This document shows, piece after piece, positions 47,234-53,211 of a stretch of 64,000 nucleotides of DNA (positions within the stretch are counted from its first letter, which is position 1; the number at the start of each line of letters is the position of its first letter). Below the pieces are notes generated by a model. The model saw nothing but the letters and a program-made list of their open reading frames with translations, had not been told where the DNA came from and did not search any database. The stretch comes from an uncultured Chitinophaga sp. (lineage in GTDB: Bacteria > Bacteroidota > Bacteroidia > Cytophagales > Cyclobacteriaceae). The position numbers and the translations under genes were made by a program. The stretch is from positions 496,001-560,000 of the forward strand of contig CABHOK010000002.1 in assembly GCA_902168205.1 (NCBI GenBank), given 5' to 3'.

Positions 47234-47677
47234 TTACGTCAGGCTGAGTTTATCGGGCTCAACCCAGCTGGCGCGGGCCTTTACCGAGAACAGTAACTCG
47301 CGGGTATAGAATTGTAACGGAAGTTCTTTGGATGTCCATTGACTCTTGAAAAGTGTATCGCACAGATCAACCAACGTCAGGTCGCGATTCTTGTTGATGA
47401 ACTCGCGAATGATCTTGCACCAGAAGATTGTAAGAGTCTCATGATAGCCCTTCTCCGGAGTATTCTGGCCTCCAGTCACTACGTTGTACGTAATGATACC
47501 GCTTCGTAAATAACAGATCGCTTCAAACTCATCATAGTTTTTGTTAAACCAGAGTGCTGTTACCAAGTGTGCTTCATGCGTCCATTCCTGCACAGGGAGC
47601 GTACCGTTACGGAAGTTGTTAACGAGATCTAAAATTTCTTTTTCAGTCGTATACAAGGGACGAGTGAGCGTTGACAT
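47234..47677 (-). CDS. Conserved protein of unknown function with WTHEAHL motif
   Basis: This 147-residue, mostly helical, cytoplasmic protein has two His-containing motifs, VQEWTHEAHLVTALWF and KGYHETLTIFWCKII, that I associate with an uncharacterised bacterial family. The paired His and Glu could hold a metal, but no function is known to me. It has no signal peptide and stands alone, upstream of neither neighbour in an obvious operon. Confidence 0.7.
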   Translation of the reverse strand: MSTLTRPLYTTEKEILDLVNNFRNGTLPVQEWTHEAHLVTALWFNKNYDEFEAICYLRSGIITYNVVTGGQNTPEKGYHETLTIFWCKIIREFINKNRDLTLVDLCDTLFKSQWTSKELPLQFYTRELLFSVKARASWVEPDKLSLT

Positions 47678-47769: not shown

Positions 47770-48546
47770 CTATACCGCGGCACCATCGAACCAGGTCTTG
47801 AAGTCCTGTACTTTCTCACGACTCACAATAATCTCCTTGTCAAATTCCTGTAGCAACGTAATTTTTAGTCGGCTGTTGGAGTATACCAGTACATCTTTAA
47901 TCGCGTTGATGTTTACAATGAACGTACGGTTGATGCGAAAGAACGCGCGCGGGTCCAGTACATCTTCCAACGACTCGAGAGTATAATCGATAATGAATTT
48001 TTTCCCCCCCGTTGTCACCAGGTATACATCGCGGCCTTCGGCATAGAGCACTACAATCTGGTCAGTAGTAACAGAGCGTATATGTTCGCCCACCTTTACC
48101 ATAAAGCGGTTCTTGTATACATGATGCTGCGAAGTACTGAAAGCTTGCTGCACACGTTGAGACTGATCGGTATGCAATGTGAATTGCTCACGCAGCACCT
48201 GCAGTTTATGAAGACTCGCAGAGAGATCTGTGAACGTAACCGGTTTCAACAGGTAATCGATACTGTTTACTTTAAAAGCATCCAGGGCAAACTCGTTATA
48301 CGCTGTCGTGAAAATTACCGGCTTACGCACCTGCACCTGTTGAAAGATCTGGAAGCTTAGTCCATCCGTTAGCTGAATGTCCATAAAAATAAGATCGATC
48401 GTATCCTGATTTTGTTGTAGCCACGCTACAGAGCGTTGCACCGAGTCAAGGTGTGCCATAATCTGAATGGATGCATTGTATTTGTGCAGGTACCGCTCCA
48501 GCTTTTCCGCTGCCGGAATTTCATCTTCAATGATAACAACCTTCAT
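47770..48546 (-). CDS. LytTR-family response regulator
   Basis: This 258-residue protein has a receiver (acidic residues in VVIIEDE, phospho-Asp56 in LIFMDIQLTDGL, Lys in SIDYLLKPV) and a C-terminal LytTR DNA-binding domain (about 150-255: FMVKVGEHIRSV, YTLESLEDVLDPRAFFRINRTFIVN in parts). It is the output of the signalling genes upstream on the same strand; only 1 bp separates it from the degenerate kinase. LytTR regulators bind direct repeats; I did not find an obvious target in the window. Confidence 0.95.
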   Translation of the reverse strand: MKVVIIEDEIPAAEKLERYLHKYNASIQIMAHLDSVQRSVAWLQQNQDTIDLIFMDIQLTDGLSFQIFQQVQVRKPVIFTTAYNEFALDAFKVNSIDYLLKPVTFTDLSASLHKLQVLREQFTLHTDQSQRVQQAFSTSQHHVYKNRFMVKVGEHIRSVTTDQIVVLYAEGRDVYLVTTGGKKFIIDYTLESLEDVLDPRAFFRINRTFIVNINAIKDVLVYSNSRLKITLLQEFDKEIIVSREKVQDFKTWFDGAAV

Positions 48547-48547
48547 G

Positions 48548-49618
48548 TTACTTATTTATAGCGATGCCTTCTTCTACTTTTAACACCGGCAGTTTGGTAT
48601 AACTTTCCTGGTATGCCTTTACCTGTATCAACGGCAGGTCGCTGTACAAGGCATACGATTTTTGCAAGCGGTTAAAAGCAACTTTACCTCCTTCATACTG
48701 AATCAGGCGGTCGTTTAATTTATTCTGGATCACAAGGTAATCATCTTCGCGGTAGCAATGTATAATGAATGGTTCGAACCGGGTAATGATGCTGTTCCGG
48801 ATAATACTTTCAAGAACAATAGGAAGCGAACCCGGAATGAGTCGCGCATCGGCATCTGTTTCTTCGAGTGATGTCTCAAAGCGAAGTTGTCCAAAGTATT
48901 TTTCATTCAGAATACGGATCAGGTTCTTACCGGCATCCAGTTCGGCTGTTACAGGCACTAACTCCTGGTGACGGTTGGCAAGCACATAGCGATAAGCACT
49001 GGCAAGCGAATCAATATAGTCTTCTGCTTTATCGACATCGCGATACATAATACCGATCAGGTTCTCCAGGCTTTCATAAAGTAAATCCGGGTTGATGTCT
49101 TGTTGAAACTCGGTCATCTCCATTTCCAGGATTTCACGTTGCTGTATTTCGGCCTGTATCTTCAGTGTGTTTTCTTTCTGCAAGTAATAATGGCTCAGGT
49201 ATAGAATGTTGTACAGTATAACGGTAACCGTAAAGATGATGAGGAAGATGAACGCCTGCGTATCACTCATACTAAACCCGATCGCATACCGGAAGTAGAG
49301 GCTCAATGCGGTCATCACCAGGCCAACCGATACAATCGTAGTAGCAATTACCTGCACCGGTATATGGAGCCGTCCCTGGGCATACCGGGTATATTTACCC
49401 AGCAATTTGATAATGAGCCGCGAGCTCTCGAACGCTACAAAGGTGAGGACAATGAATACATATACCTCTTCACTGCGAAATAATTCATTTACCTGCGCTA
49501 CAGTGTTGTTGATCATCAGCACGAGTAAATAGATCAGCACACCATACACCACCGGGGCCACAATGCGAAACACAGGATGGTTAACAAAGTATTGCTTGGT
49601 ATAACGCTTGTTGTTCAT
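48548..49618 (-). CDS. Degenerate LytS-type membrane kinase (pseudokinase)
   Basis: This 356-residue protein has four predicted membrane segments (about 18-36, 52-70, 88-108, 120-140) and a cytoplasmic region that aligns with the His_kinase/HATPase module of the gene upstream. The phospho-His is replaced: INPDLLYESLENL has Asp178 where the partner has ISPHYLFNSLNTI. The N-box is LESIIRNS against LVENAVKHN, and the G-box VGLENIQ is VAFNRLQ. It should not bind ATP or autophosphorylate. It lies 4 bp after the active kinase and 1 bp before the LytTR regulator, so it is retained in an operon and probably modulates the kinase as a heterodimer partner. Confidence 0.88.
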   Translation of the reverse strand: MNNKRYTKQYFVNHPVFRIVAPVVYGVLIYLLVLMINNTVAQVNELFRSEEVYVFIVLTFVAFESSRLIIKLLGKYTRYAQGRLHIPVQVIATTIVSVGLVMTALSLYFRYAIGFSMSDTQAFIFLIIFTVTVILYNILYLSHYYLQKENTLKIQAEIQQREILEMEMTEFQQDINPDLLYESLENLIGIMYRDVDKAEDYIDSLASAYRYVLANRHQELVPVTAELDAGKNLIRILNEKYFGQLRFETSLEETDADARLIPGSLPIVLESIIRNSIITRFEPFIIHCYREDDYLVIQNKLNDRLIQYEGGKVAFNRLQKSYALYSDLPLIQVKAYQESYTKLPVLKVEEGIAINK

Positions 49619-49622
49619 ACGC

Positions 49623-50732
49623 CTATGCCTGCTTTAAATAGAGATGCTCATTTTTTTCAGTAGTCAGGATAAGCGGCAATGATACACTGAACTTATCATC
49701 ATCACGTACTTCGATTTTACGATCAGTAAACAATTGATAACGCTTCTGAATATTTTCGAGTCCCACGCGGAACGAAGTCACGTGATCGTATATACCGGTT
49801 TTGGTGTTCATTACACGCAGGTACGAATTATCATGTGCCGTGATATAGATAAAAAGTTTCTTGTCGTTCTGGATCGGGTTATGCTTCACGGCATTCTCAA
49901 CCAGCATCTGTAATGTCAGCGGAGGAATTTTACTCTTCATGATACCCGAAGGCAGGTTTATCTCCACGTGCAATTGTTGCTGAAAGCGGATGCGCAGTAA
50001 ATAATAATACGATTGTACAAAGTCCACTTCCTCCTGCAAGGTAACATAGCGTTTATGCTGGGTGTTGAGTATAAACTGGTATGTTTGCGCGAGTCTGCGA
50101 ATGAACTGTTCTGCCGATGGAAGATCCTTGAAGAGGAGAGAGGAAATTGTATTCAGACTGTTGAATAAATAGTGTGGACTGATCTGACTCTTCAACGCTT
50201 CGAACTGCAATTCAAGTTGTCTCCGGTCGCGCTGTAAATTTTCAATCTGTGCCACGGCATAATGCTGGTATGAAAATAACAGTGCATATACAATGTTATA
50301 AATAAACATAACCGTTAGCAGCAGTATAATCGTTTTCAAAACGAGGTCGTCATCCTTGGCGGAAAATCCAAGCCATATACTGTCAGGACCTGCCAATGCC
50401 ATCAGTACGTTGGCCATACCAAAAACGAGTATAGCAGCGAGTACAGCGTTGGAAATATAGCCTGTGAGCAACCGCGCAGCAAAGTGGTTGCTCCAGGGAA
50501 TAACACGGTCCAGCTTCCGGTTGCTATAGAGCAGGCTCACTCCGGCTATACCTCCGGTAAATATACTGAAGAGTATACCCACGATGTCTGTATGTATATC
50601 CGGGAATTGAGCCGTTTCACTGAAGTGCAGGTAGCCATAGATCATGAACGAGGCAAAGGCGGGCAAAAGCATCACCACCAGCACCTGGCGCAGCACATCA
50701 CGCATACGGGTATAATAAGCGGTTGAGTTCAT
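49623..50732 (-). CDS. LytS-type sensor histidine kinase
   Basis: About 369 residues with four membrane segments (for example QVLVVMLLPAFASFMIYGYL and AVLAAILVFGMANVLMAL) and an intact His_kinase motif, KSQISPHYLFNSLNTISS (His at about 187), followed by an HATPase with N-box LVENAVKHNP and G-box VGLENIQKRY. It should phosphorylate itself and then the LytTR regulator. A GTG at 50747 extends the frame by five codons; the ATG at 50732 is preferred. The SDHY-repeat protein gene lies 67 bp upstream on the same strand. Confidence 0.93.
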   Translation of the reverse strand: MNSTAYYTRMRDVLRQVLVVMLLPAFASFMIYGYLHFSETAQFPDIHTDIVGILFSIFTGGIAGVSLLYSNRKLDRVIPWSNHFAARLLTGYISNAVLAAILVFGMANVLMALAGPDSIWLGFSAKDDDLVLKTIILLLTVMFIYNIVYALLFSYQHYAVAQIENLQRDRRQLELQFEALKSQISPHYLFNSLNTISSLLFKDLPSAEQFIRRLAQTYQFILNTQHKRYVTLQEEVDFVQSYYYLLRIRFQQQLHVEINLPSGIMKSKIPPLTLQMLVENAVKHNPIQNDKKLFIYITAHDNSYLRVMNTKTGIYDHVTSFRVGLENIQKRYQLFTDRKIEVRDDDKFSVSLPLILTTEKNEHLYLKQA

Positions 50733-50799
50733 GGTATTGCAACGCACCTGTAAAATAAGAATTGCGCATCAGTTTTGAAATGATTTATACTTCAGCGGT

Positions 50800-52248
50800 T
50801 CAGTCGATGGCACGAACTGCTCTGCCATAGTACGTTTCTGATTCTATAGATTTCGCTGCATCGCGGTAAGCATCCTTAAGAGGAGTGCCTCCGGCTTTTA
50901 CCTTCGGGGCAACATTCGTTAACACGTCCGTTGCGTAATGATCGGACTCAATGCGCTTGGTAAGTTGGATAAGTTGTATGAGCTGGCTTTCGCTGAGCGA
51001 GGCCGAAGATGCTGCACGAATCAATACCTGAGATTTATAGTGATCACTTCCGATAGAGCCCACCAGGTTCAGCACACCGGTAAACTGGTTGTCATTAAGA
51101 CCTTGCTTTTGCAGCAGGTTAATTAAAACGTCTGAGCGGTAATGATCAGATTCGATCGTGGAGATAATAGAGAATGTGGCCGTAAGAATTTCCGGTGTAA
51201 GCTTCGCGCGCATTAAATGATTGATCACTTGTGTGAGGTAATGGTCAGACTCTATATCTTTTACCGTTTCCACTAAACGTTGGTAGGAAGCTTTCGATAT
51301 GCCAGGTTTATCCAAAGCCTTGGTAAGCACCTGGGTTTTGTAATGATCAGATTCTATGGAGCGCGTGACGTTAATCAATTCTGCAAGTGTTGCATCCGTA
51401 AAGGAGGGTGCCTTTAGTAATGACAGCAATACTTCCGTTATATAGTGATCGGATTCCATGCGTGCTGCCGATTGCAGAATTACTCCTATATTTTCAGGAG
51501 TTGCAGATGATTCCTTTAGTGCTTCCTTGATCACATCTGTTTTATAGTGATCAGACTCTATGCCATTCGTTGCAGCAAATACAGCGGTAGTACTTTCTTT
51601 CGTCTGTAAAAACTTGGCGATGTTCGTTTTCAGAAATTCAGTTTTGTAATGATCGGAATCTACTTTGTCAGTGATGGATTTAAGAACCGTTACATACTCA
51701 CCAGGCTGCAGTGTTTTTTTCATCAGTAGATTCGCATACTGAATGCGGACAGCATCATTCTCAAGTCTGTTAATTTCGGCTAATACAGCCGCCGTGCCAC
51801 CTTGTTTATAGATACGGTTCAAACGACTTTCGGCAGATATACCGGTGGAGCGTACTACTTCCTGAAGAATTTCTCCGAGCCATGCCTTGCCGTTTTCCCA
51901 TGAAGAAAGCGTACGTCCTTCATAGTATTCTTTTTTCATTTTCCCGCCACCCAGCGATTCAATTTTTACCGTGCGCTTGCTTCCGAAAACTGTTTTGCTG
52001 ATCTCAAGATAACCATCGTCTGAAATGGATTTTATATCGCGGTCATCATCGGTAACTTCAATTTTTCCACGCAGTTCGATGTTGAACTCGGTTCCGTTGG
52101 AAGAAGTTGAATACCGGTAACGGGCCTTGTTGTTATTGATTTCAACAGATGTATTGGTTGATACCGATTCGTTCTGGCCCAGTGCGGACTCCACGAGGAT
52201 CAATATCAGGAAAGCAATGCTCATCAGGGTGCGTGCCGTGTATTTCAT
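50800..52248 (-). CDS. Exported alpha-solenoid protein with SDHY 34-residue repeats
   Basis: This 482-residue protein has a signal peptide (about 1-24, ALGQ), a beta-rich region at about 35-110 (FNIELRGKIEVTDDDRDIKS, GYLEISKTVFGSKRTVKIES), a link (ENGKAWLGEILQEVVRSTG) and then a run of repeats. Each repeat carries IESDHYKTxVL; the eight exact SDHY motifs start at 198, 232, 266, 300, 334, 367, 401 and 435, with degenerate copies at 164 and 470. The spacing of 33-35 implies a helical solenoid like TPR or HEAT. I recall unnamed relatives fused to or near M56/BlaR1-type proteins, but no function. It is the first gene of a likely operon with the LytS kinase. Confidence 0.85.
   Translation of the reverse strand: MKYTARTLMSIAFLILILVESALGQNESVSTNTSVEINNNKARYRYSTSSNGTEFNIELRGKIEVTDDDRDIKSISDDGYLEISKTVFGSKRTVKIESLGGGKMKKEYYEGRTLSSWENGKAWLGEILQEVVRSTGISAESRLNRIYKQGGTAAVLAEINRLENDAVRIQYANLLMKKTLQPGEYVTVLKSITDKVDSDHYKTEFLKTNIAKFLQTKESTTAVFAATNGIESDHYKTDVIKEALKESSATPENIGVILQSAARMESDHYITEVLLSLLKAPSFTDATLAELINVTRSIESDHYKTQVLTKALDKPGISKASYQRLVETVKDIESDHYLTQVINHLMRAKLTPEILTATFSIISTIESDHYRSDVLINLLQKQGLNDNQFTGVLNLVGSIGSDHYKSQVLIRAASSASLSESQLIQLIQLTKRIESDHYATDVLTNVAPKVKAGGTPLKDAYRDAAKSIESETYYGRAVRAID
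50824..51759 (-). repeat. Tandem 34-codon SDHY repeats within the solenoid gene
   Basis: Ten consecutive units of about 102 bp, eight of them with the codons for SDHY. On the plus strand the motif appears as GTAATGATC(A/G)GA(T/C)TC or close variants. The motif codons are conserved while the rest of each unit has drifted, which indicates old duplication under selection on the motif. Confidence 0.8.
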
Positions 52249-52345
52249 ATCGAGTTTTGTTTTTTTATGCTATCAACGGTACAAGAATGGTGATAAGATT
52301 CACACATAAAAAGAGTATTGTAATGAAGTGTAGAACGGGTGTAGT

Positions 52346-52364
52346 GAACCGTATAAAACGGTTC
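52346..52364. other. GAACCGT/ACGGTTC hairpin in the 52249-52566 spacer
   Basis: A perfect 7-bp stem with an ATAAA loop lies in the divergent spacer between the SDHY-repeat gene and the NarL-type regulator. It may be an operator or a 5' leader hairpin of the SDHY gene, whose ATG is about 100 bp away. I see no convincing promoter or ORF in the remainder of the 318-bp spacer. Confidence 0.35.
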
Positions 52365-52566: not shown

Positions 52567-53211
52567 ATGATTGGAAAATTGAAGAAGAGAATCGTGCTGA
52601 TCGAAGAAGATGACAGGCTACGCGAGGGGTTGAGCTTTATGATTGAACACAGCGGTAATTACTCCATGGTAAATGCCTATAAATTTTATGGTGATGCGAT
52701 CCGCCAGATCCACCGCGATTGTCCTAACCTGGTTATTATGGACATCACCATATCGGACATGCACGGAGTGGAAGGTATACGCACCCTGAAAAGTAAATAC
52801 CCCGCAGAAATTGTCGTGTTCACCGATATAGATTCGGCACAGGTGATCAACGAAGTGCTCAGTCTCGGCATCAGCGGGTATATATTGAAAGATGTACCGC
52901 TTACGGATTTCATTCGTTCACTCGAATGTGTTGTAAACGGAGGTGCTGTGCTCAGCCCGGCTGTTGCCAAAACCGTGCTGGAGTTCTTTCATCTCAATCC
53001 GTATACACCCCTTTCTTCGAGGGAAACCGATGTGTTGAGACTGATCACGCGCGGCAAAACGTATTCGGAAATAGCGCTCGAATTGAACATCGCGATTGAG
53101 ACATCCAAAACACACATCCGGAATATATATAAGAAACTCAATGTCAATTCAAAGTCAGAAGCTGTACGCAAGGCTTTGAATGATAAACTGGTTTCCGTTG
53201 GTGTTGATTAG
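52567..53211 (+). CDS. NarL/FixJ-type response regulator
   Basis: This 214-residue protein has a receiver (RIVLIEEDDRLREGL, phospho-Asp in LVIMDITISDMHG, Thr in VVFTDID, Lys in YILKDVPLTDF) and a LuxR-type HTH (LSSRETDVLRLITRGKTYSEIALELNI in parts, KTHIRNIYKKLNVNSKSEAV). It should bind DNA as a phosphorylated dimer. No kinase is adjacent in this direction. The following SusCD pair on the same strand is a possible target, but a structured spacer of 384 bp separates them. Confidence 0.93.
   Translation: MIGKLKKRIVLIEEDDRLREGLSFMIEHSGNYSMVNAYKFYGDAIRQIHRDCPNLVIMDITISDMHGVEGIRTLKSKYPAEIVVFTDIDSAQVINEVLSLGISGYILKDVPLTDFIRSLECVVNGGAVLSPAVAKTVLEFFHLNPYTPLSSRETDVLRLITRGKTYSEIALELNIAIETSKTHIRNIYKKLNVNSKSEAVRKALNDKLVSVGVD

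Follow-up and report, generated by a model that had tools for sequence, protein, structure and literature searches.

We examined a four-gene cassette on the minus strand of a 64,000-nucleotide stretch of DNA (hereafter the window) from an uncultured Chitinophaga sp. (GenBank assembly GCA_902168205.1, contig CABHOK010000002.1, positions 496,001 to 560,000 of the forward strand). Open reading frame (ORF) calls confirmed the four genes where the initial annotation had placed them, with intergenic gaps of 67, 4 and 1 bp, and we refer to their products, in gene order, as SOL (a repeat protein predicted to be exported), HK (a histidine kinase), PK (a pseudokinase) and RR (a response regulator) (Table 1). 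The start of HK was taken to be the likely ATG at 50732; the longest ORF would begin at a GTG at 50747. A pair of direct repeats precedes the cassette, outside the interval 47770-52248 that the initial annotation had covered.

Table 1. Cassette genes and upstream elements in the window.
Feature	Coordinates	Strand	Details
SOL: SDHY-repeat protein, 482 aa, predicted to be exported	50800..52248	-	signal-peptide-like N-terminus, beta domain 32-115, alpha-solenoid 117-482 of 34-aa repeats (modelled)
HK: PF06580 histidine kinase	49623..50732	-	~4 transmembrane helices; H, N and G boxes intact
PK: PF06580 pseudokinase	48548..49618	-	~4 transmembrane helices; phospho-His and N/G-box residues altered
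RR: response regulator	47770..48546	-	receiver and LytTR DNA-binding domain
LytTR-type direct repeat 5' of the cassette	52319..52353	-	units TACGGTTCACTACA (52353-52340) and TACACTTCATTACA (52332-52319), 21 bp start to start, 0 mismatches
TTGTACCGTTG block, putative -10 region of the cassette promoter	52274..52284	-	near-fixed distance to the repeats; promoter role inferred

Pfam assigned both a Response_reg domain (E 1e-11) and a LytTR domain (E 3.5e-21) to RR, and PF06580 to HK (E 8.9e-21) as well as PK (E 2.9e-10). The kinases BtsS and YpdA are likewise PF06580 proteins. The 'LytS-type' label of the initial annotation holds for the PF06580 domain and is otherwise loose: the LytS family (HPK8) is described as including 5TM-5TMR_LYT input and GAF domains (PMC5552118), and neither has a Pfam match at E<=1 in HK or PK. 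Predicted transmembrane helices number mostly 3-4 in HK and PK, and the loops of the window HK span 14-20 residues.

Conservation of the cassette and its pseudokinase

In an order-level sample of 194 genomes, SOL was matched in 25, of which 20 hold the cassette, and best PK matches lie ~1.4 kb from SOL. The cassette is complete in 17 of the 25, the window's own counted; incomplete copies are cut by a contig end (G096), split over contigs (G193) or have RR elsewhere (G180), while the SOL-matching genomes without a cassette are G109, G102, G047, G136 and G039, the last a weak match. A second collection of 69 named loci, sharing nine genomes with the order sample, contains all four genes in the order SOL-HK-PK-RR in 59 cases, a recurrence that argues for an arrangement beyond chance. 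Since the search patterns for these loci came from cassette-type SOLs, the 59/69 figure is biased towards cassettes, and 20/25 is the fairer one. Contig ends cut six of the ten incomplete named loci (L109, L125, L129, L151, L162 and L172), with L151 additionally bearing a short PK ORF. The other four comprise a locus with RR split into two ORFs (L153), a degenerate cassette (L175), the Flexithrix locus of the same genome as G180, where RR does not adjoin the cassette (L139), and a locus from an 'Acidobacteria' metagenome-assembled genome (MAG) that is cut at the contig start and in which no cassette was seen (L120). By the initial annotation, a repeat gene that rarely neighbours the kinase genes elsewhere would have refuted its reading; judged from sequence the opposite holds, and the four genes mostly stay together in both collections.

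Across the phylum, SOL was matched in 15 of 395 genomes, three of them in the order. Three further genomes hold cassettes in additional orders of the same class (L177-L179), and the remainder have SOL beside BlaI/M56 genes (two genomes), near extracytoplasmic function (ECF)-sigma-type genes (two), as the N-terminal domain only (four) or as a weak match (one). A Bacteroidales MAG likewise carries the cassette (L173). Of 87 loci with an adjacent HK, 11 were removed manually, nine for genomes shared between the collections and two as near-identical. Among 70 complete cassettes with duplicates removed, median gaps are 75, -4 and -4 bp, and pairwise distances for the four proteins are correlated (r 0.88-0.95), mostly through shared descent. 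Three loci (L131, L145 and L150) have extra, shorter SOL-like genes upstream of the cassette SOL (206 and 343 aa; 213 aa; 215 aa, respectively), as if SOL were sometimes duplicated.

The initial annotation had described one intact and one degenerate kinase, and this description stands. The motifs of the window HK are whole; in PK the phospho-His of the H-box is replaced by Asp within the motif QDINPD, and N-box and G-box residues are also altered. In a joint alignment of 77 HK and 74 PK sequences, the phospho-His is present in 77/77 HK and 0/74 PK, the G-box Gly in 77/77 and 0/74, and the N-box Asn in 77/77 and 3/74, the alignment being perhaps loose at this last position. PK was detected in 75 of the 76 cassette loci, the remaining locus ending at a contig end, and the PF06580 region is retained in all PK proteins scanned (19/19). 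A tree built from 12 HK and 12 PK sequences plus ten outside kinases groups PK into one clade (support 1.0), with HK separate (0.994). Ten of the next-best PK matches outside cassettes, picked from the match list of the order sample and not strictly its top ten, all adjoin LytTR regulators; in nine both the H and the N box are intact, while in the tenth (L232) the N box is intact and the H-box match was false. The loss of catalytic residues is therefore old and the protein has persisted. PK is a histidine pseudokinase in this sense, with its catalytic residues lost and the protein retained over evolution, and is predicted to be inactive. We rejected the alternatives of a recent pseudogene or a common paralogue, given the single clade apart from HK and the intact boxes of its outside relatives.

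An inactive histidine kinase paired with an active one has a counterpart in a ChrS variant reported to have arisen by laboratory evolution and to pair with HrrS (PMC9491836). The ChrS variant with HrrS, together with DivL, resembles what we presume for PK, an inactive histidine kinase paired with or modulating an active one. Unlike the ChrS variant, PK is old and encoded beside its presumed partner throughout the cassette loci. PK has lost catalytic residues and is co-inherited with HK; it may tune HK, as the initial annotation had supposed.

Direct repeats at the cassette promoter

Two copies of WACRSTTCANTACA lie 21 bp apart upstream of SOL in the window. Among 79 distinct cassette promoters, pairs of the core TTCAN[TG][AG]CA at distances of 18-26 bp occur in 18, all at exactly 21 bp, against 0.0 in mononucleotide shuffles. 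In a mismatch scan of the same promoters, a spacing of 21 gave a mean best score of 4.42 mismatches compared with 7.1-9.5 at 16 other spacings; further low-mismatch spacings at steps of 5 arise because the unit is itself 5-periodic. At this spacing, 49 of the 79 promoters have <=4 mismatches. When these 49 were aligned, a TTGTA block emerged 3' of the repeats with columns reaching 70 percent, and the block pattern TG[TA][AT]N[CT]GT falls at offset 76-77 in 27 of them. LytTR targets carry a pair of direct repeats separated by about two turns of the helix, and the 21-bp spacing matches this layout, marking a putative RR site.

Genome-wide scans pointed to the cassette as the clearest location of this element. 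The window's own 7.3-Mb genome holds a single copy of the strict repeat pair at <=3 mismatches, with none in the control, and a looser pattern added one site at 3 mismatches versus 2 control matches. Throughout 22 genomes, a scan that did not include L122, all sites with <=1 mismatch (15/15) are cassette promoters, and the cassette site is best or tied best in 22/22 and strictly best in 17. Control promoters (12 from genes for SOL, BlaI and ECF factors that lie outside cassettes, ten from other LytTR-linked kinases) have 9-12 mismatches in 22/22 cases. A generic LytTR promoter element was rejected for the ten other LytTR-linked kinases examined, on the same count. A scan of the window for promoters and terminators found sites no more numerous than in shuffles. 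Together, the promoter sequences indicate that the cassette is probably one autoregulated operon that starts with SOL and is its own clearest target, bound by RR as we infer, with the four genes presumably transcribed as one unit. By the initial annotation, an unrelated transcript for SOL alone would likewise have refuted the grouping; the conserved LytTR-type element upstream of SOL, the first gene, points the other way.

Two kinds of LytTR system invite comparison. E. coli BtsR and YpdB are reported to have one target each (PMC5552118). The cassette resembles BtsS/BtsR and YpdA/YpdB in joining a PF06580 kinase to a LytTR response regulator with few targets, and differs in lacking 5TM-5TMR_LYT and GAF, in adding a pseudokinase and a predicted exported solenoid, and in having its own operon as clearest target. 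The LytTR Regulatory Systems of S. mutans consist minimally of a regulator and a membrane inhibitor, autoregulate through direct repeats beside their own operon promoter and are described as showing positive feedback (PMC6193735). The cassette is like them in its LytTR regulator, promoter direct repeats and autoregulatory layout, and is unlike them in having an intact HK, a pseudokinase and a predicted exported protein. PK might by analogy be a membrane inhibitor of the LytTR regulator, with HK as a second input. We consider this quite improbable: autoregulation through promoter direct repeats is indeed the layout of those systems (PMC6193735), and PK has lost its catalytic residues, but such systems need minimally a regulator and an inhibitor, whereas the cassette conserves an intact HK together with an RR that has a receiver, and the PF06580 region kept in every PK scanned suggests kinase-like contacts.

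Divergent from the cassette lies a gene for a NarL-type response regulator (window 52567-53211, plus strand). Downstream, a 147-aa protein (window 47234-47677, minus strand) had no Pfam or NCBIfam match and no BLAST match in the 25 SOL-bearing loci of the order sample.

The repeat protein and its relatives

SOL contains eight exact SDHY motifs spaced 33-34 aa apart and had no Pfam or NCBIfam family above cut-off, and a PDB sequence search returned a sole, insignificant match (E 0.19). A hydrophobic N-terminus and a plausible cleavage site suggest that it is exported, and no lipobox pattern was present in any of the 76 cassette SOL proteins. An AlphaFold2 model (mean predicted local distance difference test score, pLDDT, 92.5) divides it into a beta domain and an alpha-solenoid. 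Compared with PDB structures, the solenoid best matched 9j5i_A, a phosphatase-complex entry (Z 15.4, root-mean-square deviation (rmsd) 8.8 over 332 residues), followed by PP2A entries at Z 13.5-14.2; identities are 6-16 percent with large rmsd, and such Z scores are common for helical repeats. On the model, the solenoid of the window SOL may belong among HEAT/ARM-like superhelices of two-helix repeats, with which its predicted fold agrees; identity to them is low, and Pfam gave no repeat family at cut-off. Of seven SOLs scanned, one passed the DUF4476 score cut-off, no individual stretch doing so.

The beta domain modelled alone reached a pLDDT of 92.8, and a fold search gave no confident match (best Foldseek E 0.12, best Z 5.6); we place no trust in its weak matches to p32 entries (Z 5.6) and to one VtrA/VtrC complex chain (Z 4.9). 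A Toastrack (DUF4097/DUF2807) identity was not supported, as neither a Pfam nor a confident fold match was found. The four-gene Toastrack context described in PMC11237479 differs from this cassette. A gene for a DUF2807 (Toastrack-type) protein lies directly 5' of one solo SOL (L070, 8714-9415). Four genomes of another family also encode the beta domain by itself, as short ORFs of 122-130 aa, and the two of these beta-domain-only small proteins that were translated are putative lipoproteins (L184, 6169-6534; L186, 6271-6645).

A single stripe of positions in the SOL repeats evolves in lockstep. We compared the likeness of repeats within a protein with that obtained when residues were dealt among proteins, at offsets -3 to +13 from the invariant Ser (0). 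The set comprised 17 representatives sharing less than 50 percent identity, including three solo SOLs. Offsets -1, +1, +2, +3, +5, +6 and +9 gave z 9.8 to 24.4, with a smaller effect at -3 (z 3.7) and +4 (z 5.0), whereas core offsets such as -2, +7, +8, +11 and +12 showed none (z -1.0 to 1.8). At +2, identity is 0.79 within a protein versus 0.27 between proteins at the same repeat, and the motifs change as a set (SDHY, SDYY, SDYEK, SDHEK, SDFEK, SSSEKGS, SDHHK). A DNA tandem repeat scan found no 34-codon array in the SOL gene and just one 20-bp row of a 9-base unit, which places the regularity at the protein level. Identical repeat residues in 58 genes share a codon at 0.479, close to the 0.459 predicted from gene codon usage, which speaks against gene conversion. 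Recent gene conversion or tandem duplication was rejected on these two grounds. The lockstep stripe may serve repeat-repeat stacking or a periodic ligand, and selection here seems to act on the uniformity of the whole array.

SOL relatives also occur with other regulators. At two loci (L180 and L183) they lie beside BlaI and M56 genes, and both M56 proteins have SOL repeats at their C-terminal end (for one genome, E 1.7e-24 and 3.0e-26). The idea that M56 proteins hold SOL-like parts fits these two loci, the fused part being the C-terminal repeats only. The M56 protein and the neighbouring standalone SOL share a PSSGD(K/R) repeat motif. The BlaI/M56 arrangement is rare in a class-level survey around G370, since SOL was matched in just 4 of 100 genomes, two of which are these cases. 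At two other loci (L181 and L182) a sigma-factor-type gene lies upstream of SOL, separated from it by two small genes; the L181 sigma gene has Pfam sigma-70 regions, that of L182 was judged from its start alone, and the presumed anti-sigma of L181 had no family match. BlaI/M56 systems combine a proteolytic relay with a repressor, and BlaR1 has its sensor domain at the C-terminus. The L180 and L183 loci share with such systems BlaI and an M56 protein beside the SOL relatives; the cassette would instead work by phosphotransfer.

These relatives bear on whether SOL serves as output alone, produced on demand as an envelope or surface protein under membrane sensing by HK, PK and RR, with no feedback to the kinases. 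The clearest RR-type site directly precedes SOL as the first gene, and SOL relatives near unrelated regulators (ECF sigma, BlaI) sit as a regulated target would. We nevertheless judge a purely output role unlikely, as two M56 proteins carry SOL repeats at the C-terminus, where BlaR1 has its sensor, and no other extracytoplasmic part of notable size is apparent in HK or PK.

A possible sensing loop

We propose that the four genes form a self-contained, autoregulated two-component cassette in which SOL is both sensing subunit and product, and give this reading somewhat less than an even chance (about 0.46). HK and PK would form a mixed pair of membrane proteins with short loops, neither having a sizeable sensing domain itself, and exported SOL would be their extracytoplasmic sensing subunit, reading a repetitive envelope or environmental ligand through its uniform stripe of repeats. 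The free or bound state of SOL would set HK activity, and phosphorylated RR would bind the two repeats and switch the operon. Under homeostasis, free SOL would restrain HK, ligand would withdraw SOL, and more SOL would be produced. With about four transmembrane helices and short loops in the kinases, and M56 proteins that end in SOL repeats, SOL as sensing subunit is the most economical assignment; because the clearest RR-type site is that of its own operon, SOL would also be the main product. The initial annotation had cast SOL as a periplasmic partner, which the exported-type N-terminus, the short kinase loops and the fusion of SOL repeats to M56 proteins elsewhere support indirectly.

Several observations weigh against this proposal. 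A good repeat pair, by the pattern used, is lacking in 30 of the 79 promoters, some of them perhaps because the SOL start is misplaced. The cassette merely ties with another site in 5 of the 22 genomes, and with the looser pattern 49 of 72 matches fall outside cassettes (10 of these 49 with 2 mismatches) against 21 for a reversed-pattern control, an excess that makes it likely that some genomes hold additional, weaker targets or else sites for other LytTR regulators. The site ranking by genome omitted eight 3-mismatch matches (from G077, G143 and G180), for which one placeholder was entered, and no match with fewer mismatches; the totals of 72 and 49 include them. In Flexithrix (G180) RR has its best match (59 percent identity) ~700 kb from the cassette, so strict linkage is not essential, and at least four genomes of the order have SOL but no cassette, which implies that SOL can act with other partners. 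Moreover, the co-inheritance figures stem largely from operon linkage.

In a variant that overlaps our proposal, a soluble, ligand-bound SOL receptor would activate HK, giving positive feedback instead of homeostasis; the same data accommodate it, and positive feedback is the behaviour described for LytTR Regulatory Systems with promoter direct repeats (PMC6193735). We hold this variant possible but doubtful, and prefer the homeostatic loop to pure positive feedback at roughly 60 to 40. Such a loop has a parallel among kinase-regulator pairs. CpxP is an exported protein produced under CpxAR, the kinase-regulator pair that it is thought to restrain, and SOL would similarly be under the control of its own pair. 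Unlike CpxP/CpxAR, SOL matches no Pfam family (the CpxP/Spy (LTXXQ) family included, at E<=1), and HK has no sizeable periplasmic domain.

A broader idea, which we regard as speculative and rather unlikely, is that SOL is an exchangeable extracytoplasmic sensor-effector for a regular polymer such as a glycan strand or another repeating component of the envelope, with all repeats presenting an identical face that changes in concert when the ligand does, and the module being wired to three unrelated chassis, namely the kinase-pseudokinase-LytTR loop, BlaI/M56 proteolysis and ECF sigma control. If true, the whole-array lockstep evolution of SOL would record the history of its ligand.

The initial annotation knew of no described system of this composition, and we found no description of the cassette in the literature searched, most subscription journals lying outside its coverage. 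The cassette is a recurrent, unnamed signalling operon whose dead kinase is old and never missing in the loci seen, and this constancy makes the role of histidine pseudokinases testable in wild-type systems. Its carriers include named isolates (Ohtaekwangia, Chryseolinea, Roseivirga and Fulvivirga), and the clearest target is the cassette itself, so that the loop would be easily measured with one reporter. The cassette points to an undescribed closed loop for cell-envelope sensing in many Cytophagales-type bacteria.

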